Positions 34,042 to 63,802 of a DNA stretch of 64,000 bases are shown here, in pieces (positions within the stretch are counted from its first letter, which is position 1; each line of letters starts with the position of its first letter). Both the position numbers and the translations under genes were made by a program. The notes below the pieces were generated by a model. It searched no databases. It saw only the letters and a program-made list of their open reading frames with translations, and was not told the DNA's origin. Origin of the DNA: Rhizomys pruinosus (Eukaryota > Chordata > Mammalia > Rodentia > Spalacidae); the NCBI GenBank assembly GCA_009823505.1, contig VZQC01013833.1:338655-402654 (forward strand). Reading direction: 5' to 3'.

Positions 34042-34152
34042 CAAAATCAGGATGAACAGAGGAAGGGAATGAATTAAACTCATCGATAGTCAATGAACGT
34101 ACACTGTTATATACTATCTTAGGGCCATCATTATCTTCAATTTTCACCAAGT
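34042..34152 (-). CDS. Bend2: repeat exon 1 (37-residue repeat nearest the BEN domain)
   Basis: A 111-bp exon between acceptor ccttacag and donor gtgagt. It reads 36 full codons, LVKIEDNDGPKIVYNSVRSL then TIDEFNSFPSSVHPDF, with split codons on either side (AC at the start, G at the end; joined copies give Asp). The phase is 1-1 and the length a multiple of three, so neighbouring copies concatenate in frame. It is distinguished by Tyr in the IVY position where others have Pro or Thr. No named domain recognised: acidic start, hydrophobic middle, F-S-F-P motif near the end. Confidence 0.75.
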
Positions 34153-34239
34153 CTGTAAGGAAAATATTTTTTAAATGATGTACAAATTACCTTTACCCAC
34201 ATATTTTATTTTAACTTTTTTGGTCTTTTTATATCTAGC

Positions 34240-34240
34240 N
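34240..34240. other. single-N gap at a sequence jump
   Basis: The base separates intron sequence just upstream of repeat exon 1 (matching about 45845-45912) from L1 ORF2 sequence matching 20331 onward. The right-hand piece then repeats 20.3-34.2 kb. Confidence 0.9.
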
Positions 34241-36365
34241 CTCCCATGCTCATGGGATGGAAAAATTAATATAAAAAACGGTCCATATCTACCCAAATTG
34301 GATATACAGATTCAATATGCAATCCAAATTAAAAACCCCAAAAGTTTCCGTCAAAGATTATTTAGCAGTTTTCTGTTTCTGTAATAAAGCACCATGACCA
34401 AGGAATTATAAAAGGAAGAGTTTTAGTTGATCTTACGATTGGCAGGTTTCCAGGGAATCGAGATCCCAGTGTGTGGTGGGAGGCCCGGGGCTGGAGATCT
34501 GGAGCAGGCAACCGAGCGGGTCACATCTCGCAAAAGGGACAGGAAACAATAGAAGGACGCAAACTGTAGAGCATGACGGCTTTTCCGCTCCCTCAGCCTA
34601 CCCCCCGTGCCACCTTTCCTGCATCATCGCCCCCCCCCCCAAGAACCTTCACAAACAACCACCACCACCAACTGGAGACAACTGACTGAATACTTAAAGC
34701 CTATGACGGGACACTCATCCCAAACCACCACAACAGACTTGGAAAAATATCCTTAAATCCATAATTGGGAAGAACAAAAACCAGAATATCCAAAGTGATA
34801 CTATGGAAAATTGCAATACAAGGGGTTCACTATACCAGACTTCAAAACTGTTTATCAGATATATTAATAAAAGAGCCTGGTTTCTGGGCAACAAAAAAAT
34901 CCCATTAGATCAATGGAAAAAAACGGAGACACACTTAGTATATCATTTCATTCAAGCCACTTATATTGGACAAGGAGCAAAAAAGACTCAATGGAGGGAA
35001 GGCAATTTTCTTTCCAGCAAGTGGTGCGGGCAAAACTGGATCACCATTTTGTATACGCATACACTTAACCCTCTCCCTCTCACCCTGTGGCCACACCCAC
35101 TCCCAGATGATCCCCGCCCTCAACCGCAACCCAAATTCCTGAAGGTGATAGAAGGAAATGTTGCCAGCAACCTAGAAGACATAGACATAGGAAAAGACTG
35201 TTCTAATCAAACAGCAGCTGTGCAGGAAATATGTCAACAATTGACAAGTGAAACCTCATTAAATTCAGAAAGATTCTACACAGTGAAAGATATAATCAAT
35301 GAAGTGAAGAGAAATCCAACAGTGTGGGAGGAAACCTTAACCATTGATACATCTGACCCGACCATTACATCCAGAATCTATAAATACTCAAAAAAAAACA
35401 AGAAAAAATTAAACGAATGACCCACTCAATAAATGAAGCAAGAGCTGAACAGTGACTTCACAAAGTGAGGAATTAGAGATGGCTGAGAAAAAAGCTTAAG
35501 AGTGTTCAATAAACCACTTATCATTAAGGACATGCAAATCAAAACCATTTAGAGATATCATCTTCCTTTCCTCCATAAGACTGACTAGGATCAAGAAGGA
35601 CAAATGATACCAAGTGCTGGAAGAGGTTATAGGGAAGGAAAACACCATACACTGCTGGTAGGAATGTAAACACTATGGGAAAAGCAGTGTGGAGAGCCTT
35701 GGAAGACGATGCAATAAACTTGCCACCCGACCCACCATACCACTCCTAGGCATGACCACCAACACTTCACCACCCAACTGCAGAGATACATGCAAAACTG
35801 TTTATTTCAGCCTCTCTTCACAATAGCAGGAGCTGGAACCAACATAAAGCCCCTCAACTGGTGAATGGATAGAGAAAATGATGTACATCCTCAACAGTGT
35901 GAGTTCTATGAAGCATAACCAAGGATGACCTTCCTGAGCTTTGAGCTTTGCAGGAAAATGAAATGCTGGAGCTAGAGGACATCATGCTGGAGTGAAGTAA
36001 CACAGTCTCGAAAAAAAAACGTGGAAGATATCCCTCATCTGTGGATCTAGGTACCAATTACCTGATTGTAAATATTTCAGTGTGCACTCCCCTGGCTTTT
36101 TTGCCCAAAGCAGCTGGTAGTGATACAAATATGGAAACAACAACAACAAAAACATACAAAAACAACAGAATGGATTGCAATGTATAACTAACTGAAAGAG
36201 TGAACTTCTGCTAAAAGAGTCAACTTCCTCAGGGAGAATATGAAGAAAAACTGAGAGAAGAGAATGAAAAGCAGGTTTTGGCAGAATGCATGAGCCTGGT
36301 GGGGAGAGGGCAATGGGGGGCACGGGGTCTAGATTTGATAAAAAATAAAAGAATGAATAAATAAA
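34241..36365 (+). pseudogene. L1 ORF2 3' part and 3' UTR, third copy
   Basis: It starts inside the ORF2 reverse-transcriptase region and is interrupted at about 34362-34733 by the same DNA element as at 20454. It continues ('VIEGNVASNLEDIDIGKDC', 'TLTIDTSDPTITSRIYKYS') to the C-terminal part. Many indels; ends in the A-rich tail near 36345-36368. Confidence 0.75.
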
Positions 36366-36369
36366 AGTG

Positions 36370-37195
36370 TCAACATCATGTCATAATAAGAAGAATGCAA
36401 ATTAAACCATTTTAAGATATCATCCTCAAGCATCTCACTCCATAGGACTGGCTAAGTCACAAAATACCCAAAGACACACCAATCTGAGAGGATGTGGGAA
36501 GGAGAATACTCAAAACCACTGGCTGGTGGTAATTTAAACTCATACACCATATGTGAAAGCATTGGTGGAGAACCCTTAAAAAAGAACTGGGGAAAGTAGT
36601 CGAACCACCTGAGCCAGTCATACCACTCACTTCCTGGGTATATAACCACAAGACTTATCCTACCGAAAAGGTACATGCACATCTATGTTAATTATAGCTT
36701 GTCTTTTCGTCACAATAGCAAAGAGCTAGAAACCAACCCAAATTCCCTCAACCATGATAATAGAGAAAATGTGGGCCATCTATACAATGGAGTTCTATCC
36801 AGCAGTAAAGAAAGATGACATCAGGAACTGTGCAGGTATGGCTGAACTAGAATTCCAATGTCTAAGTAATACAGTCCTAGAAAAAACAAATGAAAACAAA
36901 ATCAAATACCCAGTAGTAAGGTAAAACTGAGCAAGGTGTGTGTGTGTGTGTAGTGTGTGTTGTGTGTTTTCTTTTACTTGAAAGCAACTTTAAACCAGTA
37001 TAAGGTGAATACCTTAATGGTATCTAGAATTACCTTCCACTTAATTCAGATTTTGTAGTTGTGGTATATGGGGGAGGGGATGTATGCGCATACTTTAGGT
37101 AAATATAAAATTAAGGGGGAAATGTGACTTCCCCAAAGTAAGAAAGATAGGTATGCTGGCAGAATGCATGAGCTTGATGGAGAGGGGGCAAGGAC
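36370..37195 (+). mobile_element. older L1 3' fragment, copy of 22414
   Basis: ORF2 C-terminal and 3' UTR sequence with a shortened, interrupted TG run (36936-36966). It stops at 'gagggggcaaggac' and then jumps to 'tataccttgaactttcagct'. That leaves out about 280 bases present at 23231-23508. Confidence 0.7.
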
Positions 37196-37199
37196 TATA

Positions 37200-39260
37200 C
37201 CTTGAACTTTCAGCTTAAATAAGCACTTTCCCTCTACCCTGTTTTTTTGTCTGGTATTTTATGCACAACAACAGGAGAAACAGCTAATACAGTGAGTTAA
37301 ACACTGCACCACATAAACTGGACATGGGAGTGCCCATCTGTAACCCAAGCACTAGCAGTCAGGAGGGCTCTGGAGATAAAGAGGATCAGGAGTTCAAGGC
37401 AACATGCCCTGGGATACTGAGAACTCGAGTTCCAAAATTATTTAAAAAATAATGAGAGAATAGCAGTATGATTCAGTGATAGACTGTTTGCCTAGCATAC
37501 AAAGGTCCTGGATTCCCAGTACCACAAACTTTGGTCAGCCTGGTCTAGTCAAGTATTGTACACACACCTGTTATCCGAGCATTTGGGAGGCTGAGCTGTG
37601 TGGATCTTATGACTTCCAAGCCCACTCTACATATTGAGTTATAGGCCAGCCAGGAATACATAGTGAGAACCTTGTCTCAATAGGATGATGGTGGCTGCAA
37701 TTTCCCCTTTTTCAATACATTGTGTAATTCACTGTCACAGCTGTTTTCCTTATTGATTTATATTTAATATTTCTGTGGGGAAAATGATGTACTAGCTACA
37801 TTTTGATACTGTTATAAACACCATAATCAAAACCAACGGATGGTTTATCTGGCTTATAAATTCTAGTCCATCAACAAGGAAAGCCAGAGTGTCACTAAAA
37901 GCAGGAACCGTTGAGTAGAAAACTGAAATATACGAGAGAAACTGTTTTGACGAACCTTGGCATTTGCCTTTCCCCTAGCTGCTTTCCCTGATAGATATAT
38001 AATATATATATATAGATATATAGTATATATATATAGATATATAAATTTGCGGACCATGGTAATAAGGGATGGCACTGCACACAGATAAAACTGTGACCAA
38101 ATCAATAGCACTTAGAACAATCTTCACAGATATGTTCCAATAGATCAATGTTGTCTAGGAACTCTCTTTCAGTTGAGGTTCTCTCTTTGCATTAGACTCA
38201 GGTTGTGTCAAGATGACAAAAGCCATGGAGCACGGAGGCATGATTGATGGTTTTTTGGGCTTGCAAAGGAGGAATCTTCAAACACTTTCTTGGGGAAAAC
38301 CTGAAATCTTTTGTCAAAAGAAAGAAAAGAAAGAAAGAAAAAAAGAGAAGAAAGAAAGAAAGAAAGAAAGAAAGACTGAAAATAAAGAAAGATCCTCCAC
38401 CCACAGTGATATGGTATGTATGTTATTGTATTTACTTATTTATTTATTTTATGTATTTTGTTTGGACTTTTTGAGATAAGGGCCTTCCTGTAGCCCCCGC
38501 TGTCATGGAACAGACCAGGCTGTCCTTGAAAAAACAAGGAAGTATATTCCCCTGCCGCTGTCTCCCAAGTGCTAAGGATAAATCATGTGCCACCACGCCT
38601 GGGCCTGTATATATAAATATATATACAACCGGGCATGGTGGCGACATGAAAGTAACATATATATATATATTGTAGTATAAATTAAATATATTTATTCACT
38701 ACATATATTAATATATAGTAATGTAATTGCTTCATATATACATACATATTATATATATGTGTGTATTATCATCTTGCCGCCATACCCTTGGAGAAAACTG
38801 AACTTCCCTTATTAACCTCTCCCTGTCTGTTGCTGCCTTTTTTTGGTAGCACAATAGGCCTTCTGTTCCTCCTTTGAACATGCCTATTGTAACTCTAACG
38901 TGCCACTTCAACCCTCACCGCCCCCAACAACCACACCCCCCCCCTCACCCGCCCCCCAGCTCAGCCGCAGTTGGTGACTCAAAACCTCCCCTATTCTTGT
39001 CCGTCAAGTATGAAAGGAAAACAAACTCACTTCACTCTCAGACCAACCAAAATGAAAGTATTTGTTAATGGCAGAACTAGTCTTAAAACTAGCTAAAATG
39101 GTCCTCAAATATTGAAAAGACTATGATGAAAATAGCCATCTTGGAGTAGTATAAAAAAGAACAGTGATATTCATAAATTGCTGGGAAAGAGGTAAAAATG
39201 AAGTAGCTGTCCTGTAAATTCCTGTCTTTCAAATAACACTAAATCTGCAAATTACAATGT
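37200..39260. repeat. SINE/URR1/AT-rich block, copy of 23500-25500
   Basis: Contains the pB1-ID-B1 cluster, the degenerate URR1-like element, an AT run (38000-38040), (GAAA)n (38319-38392), the reversed B1 and the degraded palindrome (38580-38650). Around 38765-39005 the sequence is unusually C-rich and does not follow the 25040-25240 counterpart. No gene. Confidence 0.65.
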
Positions 39261-42200
39261 GTGCTGGATAGCTTTAGTGTCACACTTGACACATGTGGGT
39301 TTGAGCGAACGCTCATTGGGAATTCCTTCATTTTAACTACTGCTGTGTGTTGCTTGTCTGTGTGGTATTTTTCTTAATGTAGAGTGATATGGAGGGGCCA
39401 GCCGCACTGAGGGCAGTGCCACACCTAAGCAGAGGTGTTCTGTATTTATAAAAAAAAGCATGAGTGGCATGGACGATGGAAACAAGCCAGTAAACAGGTT
39501 CCTGTTCCGCCTCCAGGGTCCCACCCCCCTGCAGGGCGCCTCACTCCCTCTAGGTTCCTGCTCTGAGTTCCTCCTACCTTGGGTAACTTCAGTGACAGTT
39601 TGTGGTCTGGGATATGTAAGCTAAAGAAACTCTTTCCTCCCCAAGTTGGTATTGGCCAGAATATTTTCAGGAACTAGAACAATATGTAATTCATTTATCT
39701 TGCTATTAGACATTTATCACAGAAAAATACAAGTTCATGTTGGCACATAAAACATCACATGAGAATTCTTAGCAGCTTCTGGCTATCTGTAATAGCAAAA
39801 AAAGTTAAAAAAAAGAAAGGTGCCCATTAGCACGTGAAATTTCCAGTCAATTGTGATAATTCTATGCCATAGATTACTAACAAAAGAAGAAGAGAAATAG
39901 AAATACACATTTAAGTTTTCTCAATCATTAAGGATGACTAACATACAAATGAAAGACAAGGGGGTGGGCGGTCATGCCTTTAATCACAGGACTCAGTAGG
40001 CAGAGCAGGTGGATCTCTGTGAAGGTCAAGGCCACCTGGTCGCCTACAAGTAAGTTCCACCAATAGCTGGGAGCCTGTATAGAGACCCTGTGTCGAAAAA
40101 GACAATGATAAATAAATAAAAAAAATGAAAACCTCACCTGTGATCTAAGACAGTGATAATTAAAAGTGAGGAGGTCAAAGGTACCTAAAAAGAACTAAAC
40201 TTTCAGTACTTCAGGGTAAATGGTAAAATATTTGTACCAGAGAATGTGACAATCACGGTATGTATAGGGGGTAAGTATTTTTAAAAGCATATTAAATATA
40301 GTGCAAAATACTAAACAAATAAGGATAGACTGCTTAAAATGAGTCAATTATGAACAACACATGGGATGGTAAGAGAAACAGAGGAACAACAAATGGGATT
40401 TAATCAAAAATTTAAAAAATATAATAGAGGCTAGGGAATGGCTTAGTGGGCAAAGAACACTGCACCAATTGTTCTTGCAGAGGACCTGAGTTTGGGGTGG
40501 GGATTTTCCAGCACCAGTATGACAGCTAACAGTCCATCCTTAACTCCAGTCTCGGGGGTCGTGAAGCTTTCAAACGCTGCAGGCATTACAACGACATGGT
40601 ACACCGTACATACTTGCACACAATAACCAGCATGCAGGCGTTATACTCACATAGATAAAATAAAATAAAAAAAAAAAAATTGGGCGTGGTGGCACATGCC
40701 GTTAATCCTAGCAATTGGGGAGGCAGAGGCAGTGTATAACTTGTGAGTTCAAGACTCAAGACCAGCCCTGGTCTACAGAGTGGGTTCCAGGACAGCTGGG
40801 GCTACAGGATACCCTGTCTCAAAAAGAACCAGAAAAAAAAAAAAAGGAATAAGATGAACCTACCATTGTTTTTTTTTTTTTTTTTTTTTATTTTATTTTA
40901 TATATAAAATAAAATATGAAATATATACCACCGTGTGAACATTTATTTAAAAAATAATCAGAGGTTGGTGTGGGTGGTGGACACATGCCTTTAATAATAT
41001 CCCAGCACTCGGGAGCAGAGGCAGGCAACCTCTGTGAGTTCAAGCCCACTAGTCCATAACACATGGAAAGTTCCAGACATCTGGGGCTATAAAAGACCCG
41101 GTTTCAACAAGACACAAAAAAAAAAAAGGCAAAGAAAGAAAAAAAAAAAAAAGGGGAACGAGAAGCATGTTCAATCTCACCAGCAAAGCAGAGGAGGCAT
41201 CCCTCCATGAAATTGAGGGTGGCCTGGACTTCATAGCTGAATACAGATTCAGGCTAGCTGTGGCTACTTGGGGAGCATGTCTCTAAACACTAGAAACGAA
41301 GATGAAGAAGAAGAAGAGGAGGGGAATCAGGACAGAGGTAAAGACAGGAATGAGGAGGACATGGGAGGGAAGGGGGCTGAGGAGCGGTTGTCCTCCAGTC
41401 TATACAGATAATAGTCAAAATATGCTTCAGAAAAAAGAAACATGCTAGAGACAAATGACAACATTATAAAATACCAAAGGTTTAAGGATTGGACAAAATA
41501 ATGATCCTCAATATATATGTAACCAAACTATGTGATGTAAACCTGAAATAAGTACAAGGAGAAATTGATAAATTTACAATGATAGTTGAGGACCTCACCT
41601 CAACACATGCTTCTCAGCAACTGACTATAATGCCACACAGAAAAATCAGTAAGGATACATTATGGAATATTCTGTCTAAATAGTTCAAAAATGCATATAG
41701 GCCACACTCCCACAAAAATGGTACTGCAACAACAAAATATCCATATGCAAAATAATAATGGCTGTGATAATAATAATAATCTTGACTTAAAACTCATATA
41801 TTACAGAAGACAGAAACATCAAAATGGATCACAACTTAAATTAGATATAAAAATATAAAAACTTTTTTAGAGCAAACAAGGCGACAACAATGGATCATGA
41901 ACCAAACACAATCAATGTTTTGATACCCACAACCTAAAAAAGTCAAGCGTAAGGTAAAACTTGTATGAAACTGGACCTTATCAACGTTTTCCTCTGTATG
42001 AAAACATAAACTATAGAGAAGAAATGAAAAGACAAACTAACAGAGAGAAGAAAATATTTGCAAGCTATACATCGAAACACAGTTTAGAAAACTCTTGAAA
42101 TTCAGTTGTGAAAATGCAAACACTGCATGAGGAAAACATTCACAGATTAAAGGATGTACATGTGGAAAATTATCACATGAAAAGATATACATTATTACTC

Positions 42201-42940
42201 AAAAGAAAATTCATAGTTAACTCCTAGGGACAATTATCAATATGGCCTGTCAGAAAATTGCTACACTAAAAACTCTATAAGCATGGTGGGTCACTTAGCA
42301 TTGGGAGGTTAAAAGCAAGTGGGCCATGAGTTAGAGGCTAGCTTTTACTACAGAGTGAGTTCTAGGACAAGCCTAAGCTAGATACAAGAGACAACCTCTC
42401 ATGTTTTCGCTTTCTCCCCTCCCCCCAAACCAAAGAATGTGAAAACACTGAATGCTGGTAATAATGCAGACACAGTGAACTGCTCTTACATAATAGGAAC
42501 ATAAAATGGCATATGCACTCTGTAAATAATTTGATACATGCTTATAAATCTAAAATGCAATGCCTTTTTACCGTTTACTACTCAGGCAAGGAATTCATTT
42601 GAGGTAATTTTGTCTGGGAGATGAAAACTGTATTTGACTGTTGACTCCAAAGATGTTTTTTACTAGTACTCTAAGCAACATTACTAATAGTGAAAACTAG
42701 TAAATAAAGCCAGTGTTTCTTTGAATGAATGTATGCCTAAACGTGGCAGACATTCTTATAGGGGAACAATACTCGCAAATAAAAAGAAGGACTAATATTT
42801 GAAAAAATGCGGCACACTTATTACTCATGGGAATCATTGGATAAACTACCCAGAAATTAGTTTGTTTAGCAAAAGTAATCCACACCCATCAAATTCTATG
42901 GAAGATCAACGTACATAATTTGGCATGCCAATTTTTTTTA
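39261..42940. repeat. URR1, B1/B2 cluster and ancient L1, copy of 25503-29095
   Basis: URR1-like element (about 39261-39660), B1 (about 39960-40110), B2 (about 40430-40670), B1 (40680-40835), poly(T)/AT patch (40870-40910), B1 (40965-41120), purine tract (41300-41350) and ancient L1 (41780-42900). No exon is seen. A ~30-base stretch present at 27826-27859 is missing near 41660. Confidence 0.65.
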
Positions 42941-43500
42941 AATATTGTTGACAATTTTATTTATTTATTTTCTATGTGATGCAGGTAACTGCTGTCGCTG
43001 CTGTAGGTATGTTTTTTAATCATCGTGTTTCTTTACTTTTGTATTTATTCATTTTTCATATGTGTCTGAAATGTACGGTCTGCATGTAGTTTTTTTGGGC
43101 AACCCGTGTCATGCAATCCCGTGGAGGTCAGAAGAGGGTGTCGGATTCCCCTGGAAGTGGAGTTCTCCTGGAATTTGAATTACAGACAGTTCTAAGACGC
43201 CATGTCAGTGCTGGCGATAGAACCCGGGTCCTTTGCAAGAGCATTCGGAGCTCTTAACCGCTATGCCATCTCTCCAGCCCCTGCTTGTAGGTTTGTGCAC
43301 CGGTTGCTTGCTCAATACAACAGAGGCCAGAAGAGGGTTGTCAGATTCAGCTAGAATTTGGGAGTTCTCCCTGATTGGAGTGTTACAGAACGAACGGTTC
43401 TCAGCCACCATGTATGTGGGTGCTGGAGAGTTGAACCCGGTCCTCTGCAAGAGCAGTCGGTGCTCTTAACAACTAACTGCGAGGCTATCTCTCCAGTCCC
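42941..43500 (-). repeat. nested B2 pair, copy of 29096-29627
   Basis: Outer B2 interrupted by inner B2, same junctions as at 29 kb, with additional small insertions ('aacaactaactgcgaggct'). Confidence 0.7.
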
Positions 43501-43616
43501 TCAATATTTTTGTAAAGGAGAATGGTATAGCTGGATGGTTAAGGATGAGGTTCAAGATAAATGAAATTAGAAGGTAATTTTCATAATAAAAATGAACAAT
43601 ATATTTCCTGGAAGTG

Positions 43617-43618
<2 letters not shown>

Positions 43619-43662
<44 letters not shown>

Positions 43663-43715
43663 CCTCCCTCCCTCCCTCTCTGTCTCCCTCCCTCCCTCTC
43701 TGTCTCCCTCTCTCT
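43619..43715. repeat. (TC)n / (CCTC)n microsatellite
   Basis: Copy of 29744-29830 with fewer uninterrupted TC units and more CCCTCC blocks. Confidence 0.9.
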
Positions 43716-44059
43716 CGTCTCTATGTATGTCAACTCATTATAGAGAATTCTGAGGACCTCTAAATAGACAAATGCTAATAACATTTTGTATTCATGTCTA
43801 AATAATAGTCATATTATTTGCTTTAATTTTGAAAAATATTAACATTGGGGAAAGCTGGGTAAATGTGTACAAAATCACCCTATATTACTTCTTATATTGA
43901 CAGATGACTCTGAAATATCTCAAAATGAAAAGTTAAAATACTCAATGAGAAATAATATCAGGAATGTTCTGGAGTCTAGGTAAAACAGTGTTATTTACAT
44001 TATGTATCATTTCAAATTCATCAAAGTTGGAACAATGGAAAAGAGTAATAAATCATTAC

Positions 44060-44167
44060 CTTCGCCACTAATATTTTCCACGCAAGTTGAGTAGTTTACT
44101 GGTTGAACTTCCAGTTGTGGTGTAGATCCAGTTTGGGACACTTCAATAGATAAAGCATTATCAAATA
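44060..44167 (-). CDS. Bend2: copy of BEN gene linker exon
   Basis: A 108-bp counterpart of 30172-30279 with the same splice sites and an open phase 1-1 frame. It has five substitutions, all within the last ~55 coding bases and all changing the amino acid: K to E, E to V, M to V, V to I and K to E (TPQLEVQPVNYSTCVENISGE). Flanking intron differs by a similar proportion. Whether both copies exist in one genome depends on the gap at 34240. Confidence 0.65.
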
Positions 44168-45091
44168 CTGAAAACAAGACATCTCACCCGTGATTTTTGT
44201 ATCAAGTACAACAATCCTCCATGAATGAAGGTGAGATAAATATTCTCAGAAAAGGAAAAAAAAAGACTAAGAAAAGATAGAATTGGGTGACTCACCTGTA
44301 GAGAACAGCTAAAGGAAATTCTTCAAAGTGAAATGATATAATGAGGGAAGGAAATCTTGTACATTGAGGAAGGAAGCAAAAAACATGAAAAGAAGAAAGA
44401 AATGAGGGAAGTGGACCAAACATCCCAATCCTACATTGCTGAATGGAATAGAAAATTGAGACAGGAACTACCTGCAAAACAGTTTGTTATTATTTTTATA
44501 AAAAAAAAATTAAATTATAATTGTAATGGGAAACATCAACTTTCCTCAAATAAAGGAGAACATTTGTTCACATAAAAATCATTTATGAGTGTTCACAGAA
44601 ACTTTACATATTTATGTGTGGGGGGTGGTGGCAAATGTATATGTGTATTTATGTAGAATAATGTGTGCCAGGGTACAGGTGCATGGTGCATATGGGTAAA
44701 TGCATATAGCTTCCAAAGTTAGATTGGTTGTTTTCTTCATCAATCTCACTTTAACATAGTGAGGCAAGGAGGCTCAAAATGATCCCAGAGGCCTCAGAAT
44801 TCTAATGGCTAATTACCCAGCTGATCGAGGATCCATTATTTACACTTTCCCCCAGTCTCCTGGGGCTAGAGGTACAGGCAAGGGCCGCCATGTAAAACTC
44901 TAAACCCCTCAGTTTTATTGGGGGCCTGTATCGTGGACACTTCCTCATACTTATGTGGAAGCATCAACAACTAACCCCTTTTTCCTTTCCAGCCCTGATA
45001 CTTCTAATCGTAAAAATAGAAAACTACCAAGATGTTTTTCAGAGAGAGATAGAGAGATCGAGATAAGAGATAGAGAAGAGCGAGATCTAGA

Positions 45092-45141
<50 letters not shown>

Positions 45142-45713
45142 TGAGCCATAGTACATCCACAGAATACTGTAGAAAAACATTCAGCACAGTGACTTGTACG
45201 AATGTCTAGGCAATATTCTAGGTGAAATAAAAAGCCAATTTCAAAAGATTTCAGACCATATAAACCCATCTATACTAAAATATAAGAAAAGACAAACCCA
45301 AGAAGAGGTATATCTGATTAGTGGTTGCTAATGGCAGGGACTGGGGAGAGTACAAGTAGGAGTGCAAGAGACAAAAGGAGTGCCATGGCTTTAAAAAAAA
45401 GCAAGTGGAATCCTTATGGTAAATTAATTGATTGTGACAATTTGGAAACTCGGTATTTCATAAAGCTAAATATCTATACAATGAAGAATGCAAATGTATT
45501 GTTTTTATCCATATTAATATATTTATTTTCTTACATTCTAATTTCGTAATAAATTCGCATTAGAAAGCTGTGAACCTATAGTAAACTCAAATGACATTAA
45601 ATTCTTTTCATTAATTTTAAATAGCAAAAGCTAAGACTACCTCTCATGAAAGTAGTTAATACATGTAGATTAAAGAGTTTACATGTATTATGTATGCATC
45701 TTTTGTAACTCAC

Positions 45714-45824
45714 CAAAATCAGGATGAACAGACGAAGGGAATGAATGAAACTCATTGAAAGTAAATGAACGTACACTGTTAGGTACTATCTGAGGGCCAT
45801 CATTATCTTCAATTTTCACCAGGT
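45714..45824 (-). CDS. Bend2: repeat exon 2
   Basis: 111 bp, acceptor ccttacag, donor gtgagt, phase 1-1. It reads LVKIEDNDGPQIVPNSVRS then FTFNEFHSFPSSVHPDF. It is the most diverged in the middle (Phe-Thr-Phe-Asn for Leu-Thr-Ile-Asp). It occupies the place, relative to the linker exon, where the unit at 31.5 kb has lost its exon. Confidence 0.75.
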
Positions 45825-45840
45825 CTGTAAGGAAAATATT

Positions 45841-47399
45841 TTTTTAAATGATGTACAAATTACCTTTACCCACATATTTTATTTTAACTTTTTTGATTTT
45901 TTATATCAAGCAAAAGTATCCATTGTGAGTCAGGTGAAAACAAAGACATTCACCAACATAAGCAAACCCAAAGTATTTGTTAATAGATGATGTAGACTTA
46001 AAAATCTCAAAAGAAAACCTTTGAAAGGATATGAAAGAAGGGATAGTATATAAGAACGAAAGGATGATGGATTGAATATAAGAAATAGGGCAGCAGATGA
46101 ATTCGAGAAATTCATACATTACAGATGGGAATGGAAAATGGCACAGTAAGAACGAAAATGGTTTGTGAATTCCAGAAAAAAAAAAGATTTAGTTACTAAA
46201 GAAAGAGCCCCCAAAATCACCATTTGAAAGTCATCCCAGAGACATGAAAATCGGTATAAACAGGTAAAGTGAATGAAAGAAATTTAAACTACAACTAAAA
46301 TAGTATTCATAGTAATCTTATGCCTAACAGTCCAAACCAAACATCCCACAGGTTTTGAAAAGTATATCCAGACTGGGGAATAGTCTTGAGAAATACAAAG
46401 AGGGAATGACTGACACACACAGTATGGATGAGACCTAAAGGAATTCACTGTGCTGAAGAAAAGATTACATATTAATCCAAGAATGGTGGTAAAACCCTGT
46501 AATCCCACATATAAGAAAGGATATCTATGGATGTGGCCCAACACAAAATCATAAATTTATTTAACACATAGAGACTTTTGTGGGTGGGTTTACTTGTGGC
46601 TTGACTGTGTAATTATTAAATATGAATTTTGTTGATGACAGACAGAATCATGTCACAATGCCAAGGGCTGTGTATACCTGCCTGATTGCATATAGAGAAT
46701 AGTAAAGTGATGATTTACAGATTTGGAGAAAAGATTAGTAGAGACCAGCCATTAGAAAAAGGGATGGGGGATGGGGGAGTGTTAATTGCTTGGAGAAAAT
46801 GTGATTGTAAAAGGACAATCTGAGGGATCATGGAAGTGCTAGAATTACTTGGGGGCATGCCTAAAATAGAGGAGACATGATCCTACCAATATGGTAAAAC
46901 TGAAATAAAATTCATATGTACAAATGCTCACAATTTAATGCACGAAACAACAAAGGGAGAAGGCTTAGGGGAGAGTAATGAGGATGTGAACATGACTAAA
47001 TATAATGATGCATGTGTTAAAACGATTCGAAATACATTACTATGCATGTTAACTAAAAATTATTTAAATAACCAGAGGAAAACATGAATGTAAGAGAAAG
47101 TGAGTAAGTTTCAATAGTATCTCCACTTTATATATTGAGGCAGGATTTCTCAAATGAACCCCGAGCTCAACAATTCTAATGCCTAGCTAACCAGCTTGCT
47201 CTAGGAATCCATTATTTCCTCTTTCCTAGTTCTCGGGCTACAGGTACAGGCAGGCTGCCATGTCAACCTCTCATTTACTTGGGTCCTGGTATCTGGACTC
47301 CATTACTCAAAATTCTATGGTATTCACTCAAACGCTAACTCTTCTTTCCAATCCTGCTACATCTAATAGTCAAAATACAAAACTACCAAGATGTTTTTC

Positions 47400-47449
<50 letters not shown>
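45841..47449. repeat. array unit, intron upstream of exon 45714, cut at gap
   Basis: Minus-strand intron with the fossil L1 end (46240-46480) and a short old-B1 remnant. A deletion at 46507 joins 'aatcccacata' to 'taagaaaggatatc'. Then come the DNA-element relic, poly-G patch 'gatgggggatgggggagtg' and a GA tract running into the N. From about 46200 to the N it is nearly identical to 55270-56510. Confidence 0.7.
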
Positions 47450-47450
47450 N
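47450..47450. other. single-N gap inside a GA tract
   Basis: The left flank ends within (GA)n. The right flank starts at 'taaatgatgtacaaattacc', the intron just upstream of a repeat exon, which already occurred at 45845. Sequence jumps back within the unit at this point. Confidence 0.9.
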
Positions 47451-49049
47451 TAAATGATGTACAAATTACCTTTACCCACATATTTTATTTTAACTTATTT
47501 GGTCTTTTTATATCTAGCAAAAGTATCCATTGTGAATCAAGTGAAAACAAAGACACTCACCAACATAAGCAAACAAATAGTATTTGTTAATAGATGATTT
47601 AGAGTTAAAAATCTCAAAAGAAAACCTTTGAAAGGATATGAAAGAAGGGATAGAATATAAGAAGGAAAGGAAGATGGATTGAATATAAGAAATAGGGCAG
47701 CAGATGAATTGGAGCAATTCATATATTACAGATTGGAATGGAAAATGGCACAGCCACCAGGAAAATGGTTTGTGAATTTCATGAAAAAACAAAAGATTTA
47801 GTTACTAATGAAAGAACACCCCAAATCACCGTTTGATAGTCATCCCAGAGACATAAAAATCGGTATAAACAGGTAAAATGAATGAAAGAAATTTAAAATA
47901 CAACTTAAATAGTATTCATACTAATCTTATGACTAACAGTACAAACCAAATATCCCACAGGTTTTGAAAAGTATATCCAGACTGTGAATATCCTTGAGAA
48001 ATACAAAGAGGGAATTACTGACACACACAATACGGATGACTCCTAAAGGAATTCACTGTGCTGAAGAAAAGATTATATATTAGTCCAAGAATGGTGGTAC
48101 AAGCCTGTAATCTCAAAACTCAGGAAGCTTAAGCACAAGGACTGTGCATGGCCATTTGAGGCCAACCGGACTTACATTGGAAAGCCTTGTCTTAGAAAAT
48201 TTAAAAGGTTATATACAATCAGACCTGTCCAACCTGTAGTCTACACTACGAGTGCAGCCACATGTAACCACGGATATCTATGGATGTGGCCCAACACAAA
48301 ATCATAAACTTATTTAAAACATTGAGACTTTTGTGGGTGGGTTTTCTTATGGTTTGAGTATGTAATTATTGAATATGAATTTTGTTGATGACAGACAGCA
48401 TCATGTCACAATGCCGAGGGCTGTGTATACCTGGCTAAATCCATATAGAGAATAGTAAAGTGATGATTTACAGATTTAGAGAAAAGATTAGTAGAGACCA
48501 GCAATTAGAAAATGGGATGGGGGATGGAGGATTGTTAATTGCTGGGAGACAATGTGACTGTAAAAGGACAATCTGAGGGATCATGGAAGTGCTAGAATTA
48601 CTTGGGGGCATGCCAAAAGCAGAGGAAACATGATCCTACCAATATGGCAAAACTGAAATAAAATACATATGTACAAATGCTCACAATTTAATGTAGGGAA
48701 CAAGAGAGGGAGAAGGCTTAGGGGAGAGCAAGGAGGAGGTGAACATGACTAAATATAATGATGCATGTGTGAAAACATATCGAAATCAATTACTATGCAT
48801 GTAAACTAAAAATAAATAAAATAACAAGAGGAAAACATGAATGTAAGAGAAAGTGAGTAAATTTCAATAGTATCTCCACTTTAAATATTGAGGCAGGATT
48901 TCTCAAATGAACGCAGAGCTCAGCAATTCTAAAGCCTAGCTAACCAGCTTGCACTAGGAATCCATTTTTTCCACTTTCCTAGATCTGGGGATACAGGTAC
49001 AGGCAGGCCGTCATGTCAACCCCATATTTACTTGGGTACTGGTATCTGG

Positions 49050-49169: not shown

Positions 49170-49233
49170 CTACTTCTATTAGTCGAAATAGAAAACTACC
49201 AAGATGTTTTTCAGAGAGGAATGAGAGAGAGAA

Positions 49234-49278
<45 letters not shown>

Positions 49279-49857: not shown

Positions 49858-49968
49858 CAAAATCAGGATGAACAGAGAAAGGGAATGAATTAAACTCCTC
49901 AATAGTCAATGAACGTACACTGTTAGTCACTATCTTAGGGCCATCATTATCTTCATTTTTCACCAAGT
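49858..49968 (-). CDS. Bend2: repeat exon 3
   Basis: 111 bp with intact ccttacag acceptor and gtgagt donor, phase 1-1. It reads LVKNEDNDGPKIVTNSVRSL then TIEEFNSFPFSVHPDF. Distinguishing changes are Ile to Asn at position 4 (shared with exon 8), Thr after KIV, Glu for Asp in TIEEF, and Phe in SFPFS. No stop, no indel. Confidence 0.78.
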
Positions 49969-51684: not shown

Positions 51685-51737
<53 letters not shown>

Positions 51738-51739
51738 TG

Positions 51740-52110: not shown

Positions 52111-52327
52111 TAATATATTTATTTTGTTAAACTCTAGTTTTGTAAGAAATTCTCATTAGAAAGCTGTGAACCTAAAATACACTCAAATGATATTTAATGA
52201 TATTTAATGATATTTAATTTTTAATTAATTTGAATTAGCAAAAGCTAAGACTAGCTCTCATGAAAGTAGTTAATACATGTAGATTAAAGAGTTTACATGT
52301 ACTATGTATGCATCTTTTCTAACTCAC

Positions 52328-52438
52328 CAAAATCAGGATGAACAGAGCAAGGGAAGGAATGAAACTCATCGATAGTCAATGAACGTACACTGTTAGGTAC
52401 TATCTTAGGGCCATCATTATCTTCAATTTTCACCAAGT
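52328..52438 (-). CDS. Bend2: repeat exon 4
   Basis: 111 bp, acceptor ccttacag, donor here gtgagttag. It reads LVKIEDNDGPKIVPNSVRSL then TIDEFHSFPCSVHPDF. This is close to the majority sequence; the Cys in SFPCS is shared with exons 6, 8 and 9. Its unit and that of exon 5 are nearly identical over 2.4 kb, indicating very recent duplication. Confidence 0.78.
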
Positions 52439-53074
52439 CTGTAAGGAAAATATTTTTTAAATGATGTACAAATTACCTTTGCCCACATATTTTAACTTTT
52501 TTGGTCTTTTTATATCAAGCAAAAGTAGCCATTGTGAGTCAAGTGAAAACAAAGACATTCACCAACATAAGCAAACCAAAAGTATTTGTTAATAGATGAT
52601 TTAGACTTAAAAATCTCAAAAGAAAACCTTTGAAAGGATATGAAAGAAGGGATAGAATATAAGAACGAAAGGATGATGGATTGAATATAAGAAATAGGGC
52701 AGCAGATGAATTCGAGAAATTCATACATTACAGATGAGAATGGAAAATGGCACAGCAAGAACGAAAATGGTTTGTGAATTCCAGAAAAAAAAAGAAAAGA
52801 TTGAGTTACTAAAGAAAAAGACCCCAAAATTACCTTTTGATAGTCATCCCAGGGACATGAAAATCGGTATAAACAGGTAAAGTGAATGAAAGAAATTTAA
52901 ACTACAACTAAATAGTATTCATAGTAATCTTATGCCTAACAGTCCAAACCAAACATCCCACAGGTTTTGAAAAGTATATCCAGACTGTGGAATAGGCTTG
53001 AGAAATACAAAGAGGGAATGACTGACACACACAATACGGATGAGTCCTAAAGGAATTCACTGAAGAAAAGATTA

Positions 53075-53420
53075 TATATTAGTCCAAGAATGGTGGTACA
53101 ACCCTGTAATTCAAAAGTCAGGAAGCGTAAGCACAAGGACTGTGCAGGTCCATTTGAGGCCAACCTGAGTTACATTGGAAGGCCTTGTCTTAGAAAATTA
53201 AAAAGGTTATATACAATCAGACCTGTCCAACCTGTAGTCTACATTCTGAGTGCAGCCACATTTAACCAAGGATAACTATGGATGTGGCCCATCACAAAAT
53301 CATAAACTTATTTAAAACATTGAGACTTTTGTGGGTGGGTTTTCTTGTGGTTTCAGTGTGTAATTATTGAATATGAATTTTGTTGATGACAGACAGCATC
53401 ATGTCACAATGCCAAGTGCT
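53075..53420 (+). repeat. old B1 and DNA-element relic in array unit (representative)
   Basis: About 53085-53205 reads as a proto-B1-like SINE ('gaatggtggtacaaccctgt', 'gttacattggaaggccttgt'). It is followed by 'caatcagacctgtccaacct' and 'ggatgtggcccatcacaaaa'. I recognise the latter as the end of a mammal-wide DNA transposon family but cannot name it with certainty. Both occur in most units. Confidence 0.5.
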
Positions 53421-54150
53421 GTGTATACCTGGCCAAATCCATATAGAGAATAGTAAAGTGATGATTTACAGATTTGGAGAAAAGATTAGTAGAGTCCAGC
53501 CATTAGAAAAGGGGATGGGGGATGGGGGAGTGTTAATTGCTGGGAGACAAGGTGATTGTAAAAGGACAATCTGAGGGATCATGGAAGTGCTAGAATTACT
53601 TGGGGGCATGCCGAAAGCAAAGGACACATGATCCTACCAATATGGTAAAACTGAAATAAAATGCATATGTAAAAATGCTCACAATTTAATGCAGGGAACA
53701 AGAGAGGGAGAAGGCTTAGGGGAGAGCAATGAGGAGGTGAACATGACTAAATATAATGATGCATGTGTGAAAACATATCGAAATCAATTACTATGCATGT
53801 AAACTAAAAATAAATAAAATAACAAGAGGAAAACATGAATGTAAGAGAAAGTGAGTAAATTTCAATAGTATCTCCACTTTAAATATTGAGGCAGGATTTC
53901 TCAAATGAACCCAGAGCTCATCAATTCTAATGCCTAGCTAACCAGATTGCTCTAGGAAACCATTATTTCCACTTTCCTAGTTCTGGGGCTACAGATACAG
54001 GCAAGCCGCCATGTCAAACTCTTATTCACTTGGGTCCTGGTATCTGGAATACATTCCTCATAATTCTATGGCAAGCACTCACCCAGTAACTCTTCTTTCC
54101 AGCCCTGCTACTTCTAATATTCAAAATAGAAAACTACCAAGATATTTTTC

Positions 54151-54201
<51 letters not shown>

Positions 54202-54782
54202 TGAGTAATAGTACATCCACAGAATACTGTAGAATAACATTCAATACAGTGACTTGGATGATTCTCTAGGCAATATTCTAGGTGAAATAAAAAGCCAATT
54301 TCAAAAGATTTCAGACTATATAAACCCATCTTTACTAAAATATAAGAAAAGACAAACCCAAGAAGAGGTATATATGATTAGTGGTTGTTAATGGCAGGGA
54401 TTGGGGAGAGTACAAGTAGGAGTGTAAGAGAAAAAAGTGGTGCCATGGCTTTAAAAAAAAGCAAGTAGAATCCTTATGGTAAATTGCGTGATTGTGACAA
54501 TTTGGAAACTCGGTATTTTATAAAGCTAAATATCTATACAATGAAGTATGCAAATGTATTGTTTTTATCCATATTAATATATTTATTTTGTTAAACTCTA
54601 GTTTTATAAGAAATTCTCATTAGAAAGCTGTGAACCTAAAATACACTCAAATGATATTTAATGATATTTAATTTTTTAATTAATTTTAATTATCAAAAGC
54701 TAAGACTAGCTCTCATGAAAGTAGTTAATACATGTAGATTAAAGAGTTTACATGTACTATGTATGCATCTTTTCTAACTCAC

Positions 54783-54893
54783 CAAAATCAGGATGAACAG
54801 AGGAAGGGAATGAATGAAACTCATCGATAGTCAATGAATGTACACTGTTAGGTACTATCTTAGGGCCATCATTATCTTCAATTTTCACCAAGT
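54783..54893 (-). CDS. Bend2: repeat exon 5
   Basis: 111 bp, intact splice sites, phase 1-1. It reads LVKIEDNDGPKIVPNSVHSL then TIDEFHSFPSSVHPDF. The only amino-acid peculiarity is His for Arg in SVHSL (a CpG-type change in the CGT codon). Together with exon 4 it represents the youngest pair in the array. Confidence 0.78.
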
Positions 54894-56468: not shown

Positions 56469-56522
<54 letters not shown>

Positions 56523-57113: not shown

Positions 57114-57224
57114 CAAAATCAGGATGAACAGAGCAAGGGAAGGAATGAAACTCATCGATAGTCAATGAACGTACACTGTTAGGTACTATCTTAGGGCAAT
57201 AATTATCTTCAATTTTCAAAAAGT
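57114..57224 (-). CDS. Bend2: repeat exon 6, clustered changes
   Basis: 111 bp, frame open, splice sites intact. It reads FLKIEDNYCPKIVPNSVRSL then TIDEFHSFPCSVHPDF. The first eleven codons carry four replacements otherwise constant in the array: Leu to Phe, Val to Leu, Asp to Tyr and Gly to Cys. All arise from G-to-T changes on the coding strand. The rest equals exon 4. It may be under weaker constraint, or may contain base-call errors. Confidence 0.7.
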
Positions 57225-57980
57225 CTGTAAGGAAAATATTTTTTAAATGATGTACAAATTACCTTTACCCACTTATTTTATTTTAACTTTTTTGGTCTTT
57301 TTATATCTAACAAAAGTATCCATTGTGAATCAAGTGAAAACAAAGATGGGGGATGGGGAGTGTTAAATGCTTGGAGAAATTGTGATTGTAAAAGAACAAT
57401 CTGAGGGATCATGGAAGTGCTAGAATTACTTGGGGACATGCCTAAAATAGAGGACACATGATCCTACGAATATGGTAAAACTGAAATAAAATACATATGT
57501 ACAAATGCTCACAATTTAATGCAGGGAACAAGAGAGGGAGAAGGCTTAGGGGAGAGCAAGGGGGAGGTGAACATGACTAAATATAATGATGCATGTGTGA
57601 AAATATATCGACATCCATTACTATGCATGTTAACTAAAAATTAATAAAATAACAAGAGGAAAACATGAATGTAAGAGAAAGTGAGTAAATTTCAATAGTA
57701 TCTCCACTTAAAATATTGCGGCAGGATTTCTCAAATGAAACCAGAGCTCAGCAGTTCTAATGCCTAGCTAAACAGCTTGCTCTAGGAATCCATTATTTTC
57801 ACTTTCCTAGTTATTGGACTGCATGTACAGGAAGGCCGACATGTCAACCTCTTATTTACTTGGGTCCTAGTTTCTGGTCTACATTTCTCATAATTCTATA
57901 GCAAGCACTCACCCACTAACTCTTCGTTCCAGCTCTGCTACTTCTAATAGTCAAAAAAGAAAACTACCAAGATATTTTTC

Positions 57981-58031
<51 letters not shown>

Positions 58032-58603: not shown

Positions 58604-58714
58604 CAAAATCAGGATGAACAGAGGAAGGGAATGAATGAAACTCATCGATAGTCAATGAACGTACACTGTTAGGTAATATCTGAGGGCCATTATTATCTTC
58701 AATTTTCACCAAGT
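58604..58714 (-). CDS. Bend2: repeat exon 7
   Basis: 111 bp, intact splice sites, phase 1-1. It reads LVKIEDNNGPQILPNSVRSL then TIDEFHSFPSSVHPDF. Asn for Asp in EDNNG is private to this copy. Gln in GPQ is shared with exon 2, and Leu in IL with exon 9. Confidence 0.78.
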
Positions 58715-60429
58715 CTGTAAGGAAAACATTTTTTTAAATGATGTACAAATTACCTTTACCCACATATTTTATTTTAACTTTTTTGATACTTTTACATCAA
58801 GCAAAACTATCCATTGTGAGTCAAGTGAAAACAAAGATATTCACCAACATAAGCAAAACAAAAGTATTTAATAGATGATTTAGACTTAAAATCTCAAAAG
58901 AAAACCTTTGAAAGGATATGAAAGAAGGGAAAGAATATAAGAACGAAAGGATTTTGGATTGAATATAAGAAATAGGGCAGCAGATGAATTCGAGCAATTC
59001 ATACATTACAGATGGGAATGGAAAATGGCACAGCAACAAGGAAAATGGTTTGTGAATTCCAGAAAAAAAAAAAAAGATTTAGTTACTAAAGAAAGAGCCC
59101 CCCAAATAACCATTTGATAGTCATCCCAGAGACATGAAAATTGGTATAAACAGGTAAAGTGAATGAAAGAAATTTAAACTACAACTTAAATAGTATTCAT
59201 AGTAATCTTATGCCTAACAGTCCAAACCGAACATCCCACAGGTTTTGAAAAGTATATCCAGACTGCGGAATAGTCTTAAGAAATACAAAGAGGGAATGAC
59301 TGAAACACACAATATGGATGAGTCCTAAATGAATTCACTGTGCTGAAGAAAAGATTACATATTAATCCAAGAATGGTGGTACAACCCTGTAATCCCAAAA
59401 CTCGGGAAGCTTAGGCAAGATGACTGTGCATGTCCATTTGAGGGCAACCGGAGTTACATTGGAAGGCCTTGTCATAGAAAATTACAAAAGGTTATATACA
59501 ATCAGACCTGTCCAACATGTAGTCTACAATCCAAATGCAGCCACATATAACCAAGGATATCTATGGATGTGGCCCAACACAAAATCATAAACTTATTTAA
59601 AACATTGAGACTTTTGTGGGTGGGTTTACTTGTGGCTTGACTGTGTAATTTTTAAATATGAATTTTGTTGATGACAGACAGAATCATGTCACAATGCCAA
59701 GGGCTGTGTATACCTGCCTGATTCCATATAGAGAATAGTAAAATGATGAGTTACAGATTTGGAGAAAAGATTAGTAGAGACCTGCCATTATAAAAAGGGA
59801 TGGGTGATGGGGGAGTGTTAATTGCTTGGAGAAATTGTGATTGTAAAATGACAATCTGAGGGATCATGGAAGTGCTAGAATTACTTGGGGACATGCCTAT
59901 AGTAGATGACACATGATCCTACCAATATGGTAAAACTGAAATAATATACAAATGTACAAATGGTAACAATTTAATGCAGGGAACAATGGAGGGAGAAGGC
60001 TTAGGGGAGAGCAATGAGGATGTGGACATGACTAAATATAATGATGCATGTGTTAAAACGAATCGAAATACATTACTATGCATATTAACTAAAAATGATT
60101 AAAATAACCAGAGGAAAACATGAATGTAAGACAAAGTGAGTAAGTTTCAACAGTATCTCCACTTTATATATTGAGGCAGAATTTCTCAAATGAACCCCGA
60201 GCTCAACACTTCTAATGCCTATCTAAACAGCTTGCTCTAGGAATCCATTATTTCCTCTTTCCTAGTTCTGGGGCTACAGGTACAGGCAGGCTGCCATGTC
60301 AACATCTCATTTACTTGGGACCTGGTTTCTGGACTCCATTCCTGAAAATTCTATGGCAAGCACCCAAACACTAGCTCTTCTTTCCAATCCTGCTACATCT
60401 AATAGTCAAAATACAAAACTACCAAGATG

Positions 60430-60437
60430 TTTTTCAG

Positions 60438-60496
<59 letters not shown>

Positions 60497-60606
60497 TGAG
60501 CCATAGTACATCCACAGAATACTGTAGAATAACATTCAACACAGTGACTTCTTTCCAGCCCTGCTACTTCTAATAGTCGAAATAGAAAAATACCAAGATG
60601 TTTTAG

Positions 60607-60664
<58 letters not shown>
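60430..60664. repeat. duplicated GA tract segment
   Basis: A ~170-bp segment ('ctgctacttctaatagtc', 'accaagatgttt', GA tract, 'gaaactgagccata', 'acattcaacacagtgactt') occurs twice in direct succession, so this unit has two GA tracts (60439-60494 and 60610-60664). The copies differ at several bases. This explains the longer unit (2,631 bp between exons 7 and 8). Confidence 0.85.
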
Positions 60665-60666
<2 letters not shown>

Positions 60667-61234
60667 CTGAGCCATATTGCATACACAGAATACTATAGAA
60701 TGACATTCAACACAGTGACTTGGATGATTCTCTAGGAAATATTCTAGGTGAAATAAAAAGCCAATTTCAAAAGATATTAGACTATATAAACTCATCTATA
60801 CTAAAATATAAGAAAAGAAAAACCCAAGAAGAGGGATATCTGATTAGTGGTTGTTAATATCAGGGACTGGGGAGAGTACAAGTAGGCGTGCAAGAGACAA
60901 AAGGGGAGCCATTGTTTAAAAAAAGCAAGTGGAATCCTTATGGTAAATTCCTTGATTGTGACAAATTGGAAACAATATTTTATAAAGCTAAATATCTAAA
61001 TGATGAAGTATGCAAATCTATTGATTTTATCCATATTAATATATTTATTTTGTTACACGCTAATTTTGTAAGATATTCTCATTAGAAAGCTGGGAACCTA
61101 AAATAAACTCAAATGACATTTAATTTTTTTCATTAATTTAATTAGCAAAAGCTAAGACTAGCTCTCATGAAAGTAGTTAATACATGTAGATTAAAGAGTT
61201 TACATGTACTATGTATGCACCTTTTGTAACTCAC

Positions 61235-61345
61235 CAAAATCAGGATGAACAGAGCAAGGGAAGGAATTAAACTTATCGATAGTCAATGAACGTACACTGT
61301 TAGGTACTATCTTAGGGCCATCATTATCTTCATTTTTCACCAAGT
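61235..61345 (-). CDS. Bend2: repeat exon 8
   Basis: 111 bp, phase 1-1, donor gtgagt intact; the acceptor region reads ctttccttacag. It reads LVKNEDNDGPKIVPNSVRSL then TIDKFNSFPCSVHPDF. The Lys in TIDKF replaces an otherwise constant Glu. Asn at position 4 is shared with exon 3. Confidence 0.78.
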
Positions 61346-63070
61346 CTGTAAGGAAAGTATTTTTTAAATGGTGTACAAATTACGTTTACACACATATTTT
61401 ATTTTAACTTTTTTGGTCTTTTTATATCTAGCAAATGTATCCATTTTGAGTCAGGTGAAAACAAAGACATTCACCAACATAAGCAAACCAAAAGTATTTG
61501 TTAATAGATGATTTAGACTTAAAAATCTCAAAAGAAAACCTTTGAAAGGATATGAAAGAAGGGATAGAATATAAGAAGGAAAGGATGATGGATTGAATAT
61601 AAGAAATAGGGCAGCAGATGAATTGGAGCAATTCATACATTACAGATGAGAATGGAAAATGGCACAGCAAGAACGAAAATGGTTTGTGAATTCCAGAAAA
61701 AAAAAGAAAAGATTGAGTTACTAAAGAAAAAGACCCCAAAATTACCTTTTGATAGTCATCCCAGGGACATGAAAATCGGTATAAACAGGTAAAGTGAATG
61801 AAAGAAATTTAAACTACAACTAAATAGTATTCATAGTAATCTTATGCCTAACAGTCCAAACCAAACATCCCACAGGTTTTGAAAAGTATATCCAGACTGT
61901 GGAATAGGCTTGAGAAATACAAAGAGGGAATGACTGACACACACAATATGTATGAGTCCTAAAGGAATTTACTGTGCTGAAGAAAAGATTATATATTAGT
62001 CCAAGAATGGTGTTACAACCCTCTAATCTCAAAACTCAGGAAGGGTAAGCAACAGGACTGTGCAGGTCCATTTGAGGCCAACCTGAGTTACATTGGAAGG
62101 CCTTGTCTTAGAAAATTAAAAAGGTTATATACAATCAGACCTGTCCAACCTGTAGTCTAAAATCAAAATGCAGCCACATATAACCAAGGATATCTATGGA
62201 TGTGGCCCAACACAAAATCATAAACTTACTTAAAACATTGAGACTTTTGTGGGTGGATTTACTTGTGGCTTGACTGCGTAATTATTAAATATGAATTTTG
62301 TTGATGACAGACAGAATAATGTCACAATGCCAAGGGCTGTGTATACCTGCCTGATTCCGTATTGAAAATAGCAAAGTGATGACATACAGATTTGGAGAAA
62401 ATATTAGTAGAGACCAGCCATTAGAAAAAAGGATGTGGGATGGGAGAGTGTTAATTGCTTGGAGAAATTGTGATTGTAAAATGACAATCTGAGGTATCAT
62501 GGAAGTGCTAGAATTACTTGGGGACATGTCTAAAATAGAGGACACATGATCCTACCAATATGGTAAAACTGAAATAAAATACATATGTACAAATGCTCAC
62601 AATTTAATGCAGGGAACAAGGGAGGGAGAAGGCTTAGGGGAGAGCAATGAGGATGTGGACATGACTAAATATAATGATGCATGTGTGAAAACATTTCAAA
62701 ATCCATTTCTATGCATGTTAAGTAAAAATTAATAAAATAACAAGAGGAAAACATGAATGTAAGAGAAAGTGAGTAAATTTTAATAGTATCTCCACTTTAA
62801 ATATTGAGGCAGGATTTCTCAAATGAACCCAGAGATCAGCAATTCTAATGCCTAGCTAAACAGCTTGCTCTAGGAATCCATTATTTCCACTTTCCTAGTT
62901 CTGTGTCTGCATGTACAGGAAGGCCGACATGTCAACCTCTTATTTACTTGGGTCCTGGTTTCTGGTCTACATTTCTCATAATTCTATGGCAAGCAGTCAC
63001 CCACTAACTCTTCTTTCCAGCCCTGCTACTTCTAATAGGCAAAATAGAAAACTACCAAGATATTTTTCAG

Positions 63071-63123
<53 letters not shown>

Positions 63124-63691
63124 TGAGCCATAGTACATCCACAGAATACTGTAGAAAAACATTCAGCACAGTGACTTGTACGAATGTCTAGGCAATATTC
63201 TAGGTGAAATAAAAAGGCAATTTCAAAAGATTTCAGATTATATAAACCCATCTATATTAAAATATAAGAAAAGACAAACCCAAGAAGAGTGATATCTGAT
63301 TAGTGGTAGTTAATAGCAGGGACTGGGGAGAGTACAAGTAGGAGTGTAAGAGAAAAAAGGGGTGCCATGGCTTTAAAAAAAGCAAGTGGAATCCTTATGA
63401 TAAATTCCTTGATTGTGACAAATTGGAAATGATATTTTATAAAGCTAAATATCTAAATGATGAAGTATGCAAATCTATTGATTTTATCCATATTAATATA
63501 TTTATTTTGTTACACTCTAATTTTGTAAGATATTCTCATTAGAAAGCTGTGAACTTAAAATAAACTCAGATGACATTTAATTTTTTCATTAATTTTAATT
63601 AGCAAAAGCTAAGACTAGCTCTCATGAAAGTAGTTAATACATGTAGATTAAAGAGTTTACATGTACTATGTAGGCATCTTTTGTAACTCAC

Positions 63692-63802
63692 CAAAATCAG
63701 GATGAACAGAGCAAGGGAAGGAATTAAACTCATCGGTAGTCAATGAACGTACACTGTTAGGTAATATCTTAGGGCCATCATTATCTTCAATTTTCACCAA
63801 GT
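63692..63802 (-). CDS. Bend2: repeat exon 9 (most 5' in the window)
   Basis: 111 bp, intact splice sites, phase 1-1. It reads LVKIEDNDGPKILPNSVRSL then TTDEFNSFPCSVHPDF. Thr for Ile in TTDEF is private. Since it enters in phase 1 and the array continues to the window edge, further repeat exons and the true 5' end of the gene must lie beyond 64000. Confidence 0.78.

Follow-up and report, generated by a model that had tools for sequence, protein, structure and literature searches.

A 64,000-nucleotide stretch of the Rhizomys pruinosus genome (the window, positions 338655-402654 of contig VZQC01013833.1, here C3440) raises the question of how a row of coding exons of one length and one phase, lying in tandem upstream of a BEN domain, has arisen and been kept, and whether it enters a protein as a repeat. 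From the sequence we regard it as likely that the array is an intron-containing coding variable number tandem repeat (VNTR) inside rodent Bend2, of the kind known from LPA KIV-2 and DMBT1. Coordinates are in window numbering, which is extended past the window ends where needed (the window frame), unless a contig is named.

The original prediction held nine exons of 111 bp on the minus strand, and all nine are present, at 34042-34152 (the last copy before the BEN exons), 45714-45824, 49858-49968, 52328-52438, 54783-54893 (the sister of the preceding copy in the tree described below), 57114-57224 (its unit made shorter by a deletion in the intron at 57345), 58604-58714, 61235-61345 and 63692-63802, after which the array goes on beyond the window end. 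Each has intact splice sites, with CCTTACAG directly before it and GTGAGT directly after it, and none carries an indel or a stop. Every exon consists of two bases, 36 codons and one base, which gives a split aspartate codon (G|AC) and phase 1-1, and the joined exons encode the direct 37-residue repeats that had been proposed; the unit consensus has seven acidic and three basic residues among the 37. No Pfam family matched a single repeat unit. Nine joined copies did match Ribosomal_L31 (2.3e-07, 31.4 bits against a cut-off of 27), but we rejected this match because the score is a sum over repeats; one unit alone gave nothing, and no stretch passed by itself. Rfam gave no matches within the window.

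The exons lie in repeat units of about 2.46 kb (the reference unit is 52262-54717, 2456 bp), and aligned pieces of these units are mostly 87-97% identical, which supports the proposal that the array was built by duplicating whole intron-exon units. The unit size first put forward, 1.5-2.6 kb, describes six of the eight exon intervals in the window (1.49-2.63 kb); the other two are longer, at 4.14 and 11.67 kb. The shorter of these contains a unit whose exon falls at an assembly gap of one N at 47450, where about 715 bp of the unit is missing, exon included, and of which an acceptor-side flank, cut by the gap, is left at 47451-47491 (minus strand); one further copy is thus probably hidden there. 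The longer interval reflects an inserted duplicate block. A stretch of repeat-unit sequence at 30837-33636 (minus strand) has no exon: a deletion joined at 31548 took the exon out whole, with about 455 bp of the unit. The other unit deletions observed (for example at 46504, 55573 and 57345) are intronic. A profile built from the nine exons found no further copies above the inclusion threshold inside the window.

The array is larger than first described. Six more exons lie upstream on the same contig (starting at 66154, 68822, 71262, 73769, 76237 and 78701 in the window frame), making a total of 15 intact collinear copies on C3440 with the array end at 78811, and there is a second locus. Searches of the whole genome (3.67 Gb in 3921 contigs) gave 21 matches with DNA, including one that covers just the gap flank, and 20 with peptide, 19 of these without a stop; the counts are lower bounds, and all matches are on C3440 and one other contig, C2905. 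The C2905 locus has four intact repeat exons on the plus strand and one inverted copy (C2905:3904896-3904789), the sole copy found in opposite orientation, which carries a stop and indels. All 19 intact copies (15 plus 4) are in phase 1-1, and the donors of two of the four on C2905 depart from GTGAGT, being GTGAAT and GTGAGA.

The two loci are 94-97% identical across ten compared blocks, and they share the exon order repeat(n)-Y-repeat-Y-BEN, where Y is a candidate exon described below. The numbers of intact copies differ between them within one genome, 15 against 4, with gaps in both; on C2905 these are one N at 3905203, 668 N at 3909445-3910112 and one N at 3924537, and the copy number there is therefore a lower bound. 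Similarity between copies falls slightly with distance (Spearman 0.35 for divergence on distance, the pairs being non-independent). Neighbouring copies differ in their flanks by 6.8% on average, the closest on C3440 being 2.0% apart and the closest pair on C2905 1.4%, while a block of 5621 columns compared between the loci has 139 substitutions, or about 2.5%. We infer that most copies were already in place when the locus was duplicated, with a few duplications following later.

The array lies upstream of a BEN domain, as predicted. A 204-bp phase 1-1 exon at 4015-4218, encoding the first half of the domain (BEN-A), and a 122-bp exon at 2833-2954, encoding the second half (BEN-B), both on the minus strand, match PF10523 when joined (E 3.5e-10; 40.4 bits, where the cut-off is 23.2); each alone is below the Pfam cut-off. 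The acceptor phase of the first fits the repeat donor, and the second starts in the same phase. In mouse, skipping of Bend2 exon 11, which lies in the first BEN domain, shortens the RT-PCR (reverse transcription polymerase chain reaction) product from 576 to 372 bp, a difference of 204 bp, so that going by these products the first BEN exon here has the length of mouse exon 11 (PMC12367297). SLED domain matches number 17 on nine contigs, and three of these are on C3440 at 539575-558082. SLED is found in SCML-type genes, and also in other genes; human BEND2, an X-linked gene, is flanked by SCML2 and RAI2. The sole SOBP/RAI2-family match lies off C3440, on contig C2801, where SLED also occurs. 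Because of the joined BEN match, the 204-bp exon like that of mouse and the SLED matches on the contig, the gene is most likely Bend2, an identity with good but not complete support. A search for protein homologues with a 444-residue composite of nine repeats and the BEN halves gave no match at E 1 among 7993 candidates scored.

The surroundings of these exons are themselves duplicated. The BEN exon block occurs in tandem at 2302-11906 and 11908-22046 (91-94% identity), with an open duplicate of the first BEN exon at 13621-13824 and a frameshifted duplicate of the second at 12423-12580, both on the minus strand; in the part of C2905 examined, the BEN exons form a single pair. Past a 7-kb gap, some 8 kb below the window, there is a second BEN-B-like terminal stretch with a stop after it (about -8090 to -7956 in the window frame, tblastn E 0.005), which has no Pfam match alone and whose first half was not identified. 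A second large duplicated block (20331-31548 and 34241-45499, 86% identity) splits the array and carries exon Y, a candidate 108-bp phase 1-1 exon on the minus strand, the first copy of which (44060-44167) adjoins the array while the second is at 30172-30279. Exon candidates come from a splice-site scan with loosened thresholds, strict ones having given no phase 1-1 candidate. Another candidate, of 147 bp and also phase 1-1, lies upstream in two copies at each locus (106111-106257 and 109914-110060 in the window frame; C2905:3880232-3880378 and 3887336-3887482); its match to Rad4 BHD_1 in Pfam stays below threshold (E 0.0004, 20.7 of the 27 bits required). The first part of SLED is present in two copies each at C3440:539575-558082 and C1223:731344-744687, and SLED is also at C2801:1128154-1131542; an SCML-type gene may thus be duplicated as well. 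Within the array there are ten runs of (AG)n or (TC)n type, 46-98 bp long and about one per repeat unit, between 45041 and 63120, which are possible sites of slippage or exchange, and a 171-bp tandem duplication surrounds two such runs at 60377-60721. B1- and B2-like repeats are also present and point to a muroid rodent.

The stronger test of whether the frame is kept is a comparison within the units themselves, for which we took all 108-bp windows outside the exon that are open in the consensus of the ten complete units. Only three of these 489 windows are unbroken in all ten units, while the exon is unbroken in 10/10; among windows with homopolymers of five or less the figure is 1/406. In the flanks, where up to 19 copies were compared, 203 windows have 14 or more copies covering them and none is unbroken, against 19/19 for the exon. 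The intron windows overlap, and they represent 32 distinct reading frames; one or more unbroken windows occur in two of these. On average, 44% of the copies of an open intron window are broken, as against 0/19 of the repeat exons. The neutral probability that no copy would have a stop is 0.092 for 19 copies and 0.131 for 15; that of no indel, reckoned from 46 events in the flanks (29 of a single base), is 0.004. The open frame is kept better than chance.

Rates of change around and within the exon were followed on a tree of the 19 intact copies, made from trimmed flanks plus exon and leaving out the inverted copy. Five changes fall in the acceptor (20 nt) or the donor (6 nt), where 15.3 would be expected in all (P 0.002), and three of them in the acceptor, against 11.8; in the 60 nt on either side of the exon, tree length is 0.33 (before) and 0.47 (after). 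That the splice sites are kept is mildly supported, and it is less sure than for the frame. Pairwise NG86 (Nei-Gojobori) comparison of the 15 C3440 copies gave pS 0.111 and pN 0.072, with a ratio of 0.63, and changes at codon positions 1, 2 and 3 number 30, 16 and 29, with 21 expected at each. The proposal that selection has kept these exons coding is thus supported for the frame and, mildly, for the splice sites, but not for the residues, which are nearly free and change about as fast as the introns.

Several observations weigh against a coding VNTR in Bend2, and the first group concerns these rates. The nonsynonymous to synonymous ratio (omega) on the 19-copy tree is 0.64, not significantly below 1 (p 0.094), and it is 0.97 when tied to the intron rate; exon tree length is 0.69, against 0.65 for far downstream intron, and parsimony counts 75 changes in the exon, against the 65 that the far-intron rate would give. 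As for the acceptor, 5.7% of far intron 20-bp windows likewise have three or fewer changes, and intron 106-126 nt downstream is conserved to the same degree (three changes, P 0.003). The broken state of the inverted copy speaks for the VNTR reading but may reflect greater age only. Such figures might be expected if the array were a genomic tandem duplication in a Bend2 intron, of which one or a few exons are spliced while the others are silent passengers that have not yet decayed, and the neutral chance of finding no stop (0.09-0.13) also speaks for this explanation. We nevertheless consider it unlikely, since silent exons would be expected to break as open intron windows do, their freedom from indels would be a rare accident, and their acceptors would have no reason to be conserved.

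A further point against is that the C2905 locus may be decaying, since one of its Y copies carries a 23-bp deletion. Together with the frameshift in the duplicated second BEN exon, this could mean that both loci are pseudogene amplicons of a Bend2 gene located elsewhere or absent from the assembly. Differences between paralogous exons are not mainly synonymous either, the synonymous and nonsynonymous counts being 1 and 5 for the two C3440 Y copies, 3 and 4 for the main BEN-A exons, and 2 and 2 for BEN-B; between the Y copy at 44060 and its C2905 counterpart they are 2 and 0. However, one full BEN exon pair is open at each locus, and a search of the whole genome with the BEN-A peptide gave three matches (from five candidates scored), all on C3440 and C2905, such that no other Bend2 is visible. 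We judge pseudogene amplicons decidedly improbable.

The remaining points against concern the assembly. Gaps of one N touch the array at 34240, 47450 and 67977, and transitions are no commoner than transversions, with 402 to 445 in the ten blocks compared between the loci and transitions making up 119 of the 322 singletons in the array. The low share of transitions hints at either an unusual mutation spectrum or sequence error, and error could inflate divergence. Both features would suit an artefact in which one unit has been multiplied by misassembly or haplotype duplication. Yet each of the 19 intact exons is unique; they differ by 2-15 nt and encode 18 distinct peptides, and the flanks of neighbouring copies, as given above, are 2.0% apart at the least. 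Eight copies also lie within one gap-free stretch (47451-67976) and five within another (67978-111159, both in the window frame). Because the exons all differ and these stretches hold so many of them, the array is not one sequence copied by misassembly, and an artefact is very improbable.

A coding VNTR in Bend2 could have arisen as follows. Copies of a 2.46-kb unit with one symmetric 111-bp exon have accumulated head to tail. Unequal exchange between units is the presumed process, and it would add or drop whole symmetric exons. Because the repeat exons and the exons on both sides of the array share phase 1 junctions, any number of exons keeps the frame. If all repeat exons are spliced together, the part of the protein N-terminal to the BEN domain would be a run of net acidic 37-residue repeats, with 15 copies giving 555 residues. 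Copy number would be expected to vary. The repeat is probably a length-variable N-terminal tether; it may be flexible, or act as a multivalent docking segment, with the number of repeats mattering more than their exact residues.

Two known systems resemble this arrangement. In LPA KIV-2, units of whole exons and introns lie head to tail, making up as much as 70% of the coding sequence with up to 40 repeats per allele (PMC11201333), and the Bend2 array likewise consists of head-to-tail units each holding a whole exon and intron. The KIV-2 units, however, measure about 5.6 kb, have two exons (of 160 and 182 bp) encoding a kringle domain and are proven to be polymorphic, whereas the Bend2 unit is 2.46 kb with one 111-bp exon and no Pfam family, and is known from one assembly. 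DMBT1 alleles have 7 to 21 SRCR domains and transcript length mostly follows the genomic number (PMC9038570), so that there, as is proposed here, the count of repeats in the protein follows from tandem copy number; but DMBT1 is a microbe-binding glycoprotein, while the Bend2 array belongs to a BEN-domain gene and encodes short net acidic repeats. Mouse Bend2 (Gm15262) has C-terminal BEN domains, the first with a 204-bp exon as here, and its full-length protein is predicted at 80.9 kDa; the word 'repeat' is absent from the main text of that account (PMC12367297). Titles and abstract openings of the literature searched, including many from papers that do not name BEND2, contain no description of a Bend2 repeat array, and in that literature the exon array is not described for this gene, although this kind of VNTR is itself known from LPA and DMBT1.

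Beyond the array itself, it is possible, though we offer this tentatively, that the Bend2 exons form a fast-turnover VNTR whose repeat number and intact frame and splice sites are under selection while its residues are not, such that the length of a germline BEN protein would differ between individuals or species and act as a length switch in a meiotic chromatin protein. The LPA and DMBT1 arrays are medically or adaptively important and hard to resolve with short sequences (PMC11201333, PMC9038570), and Bend2 is needed for meiosis and ovarian reserve in the mouse (PMC12367297). If our reading is true, the Bend2 protein could hold a long repeat that may readily gain or lose length, and Bend2 gene models in rodents of this kind may lack the greater part of the protein. 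The array would then also offer a way to ask whether fertility is affected by the number of repeats in a chromatin protein.

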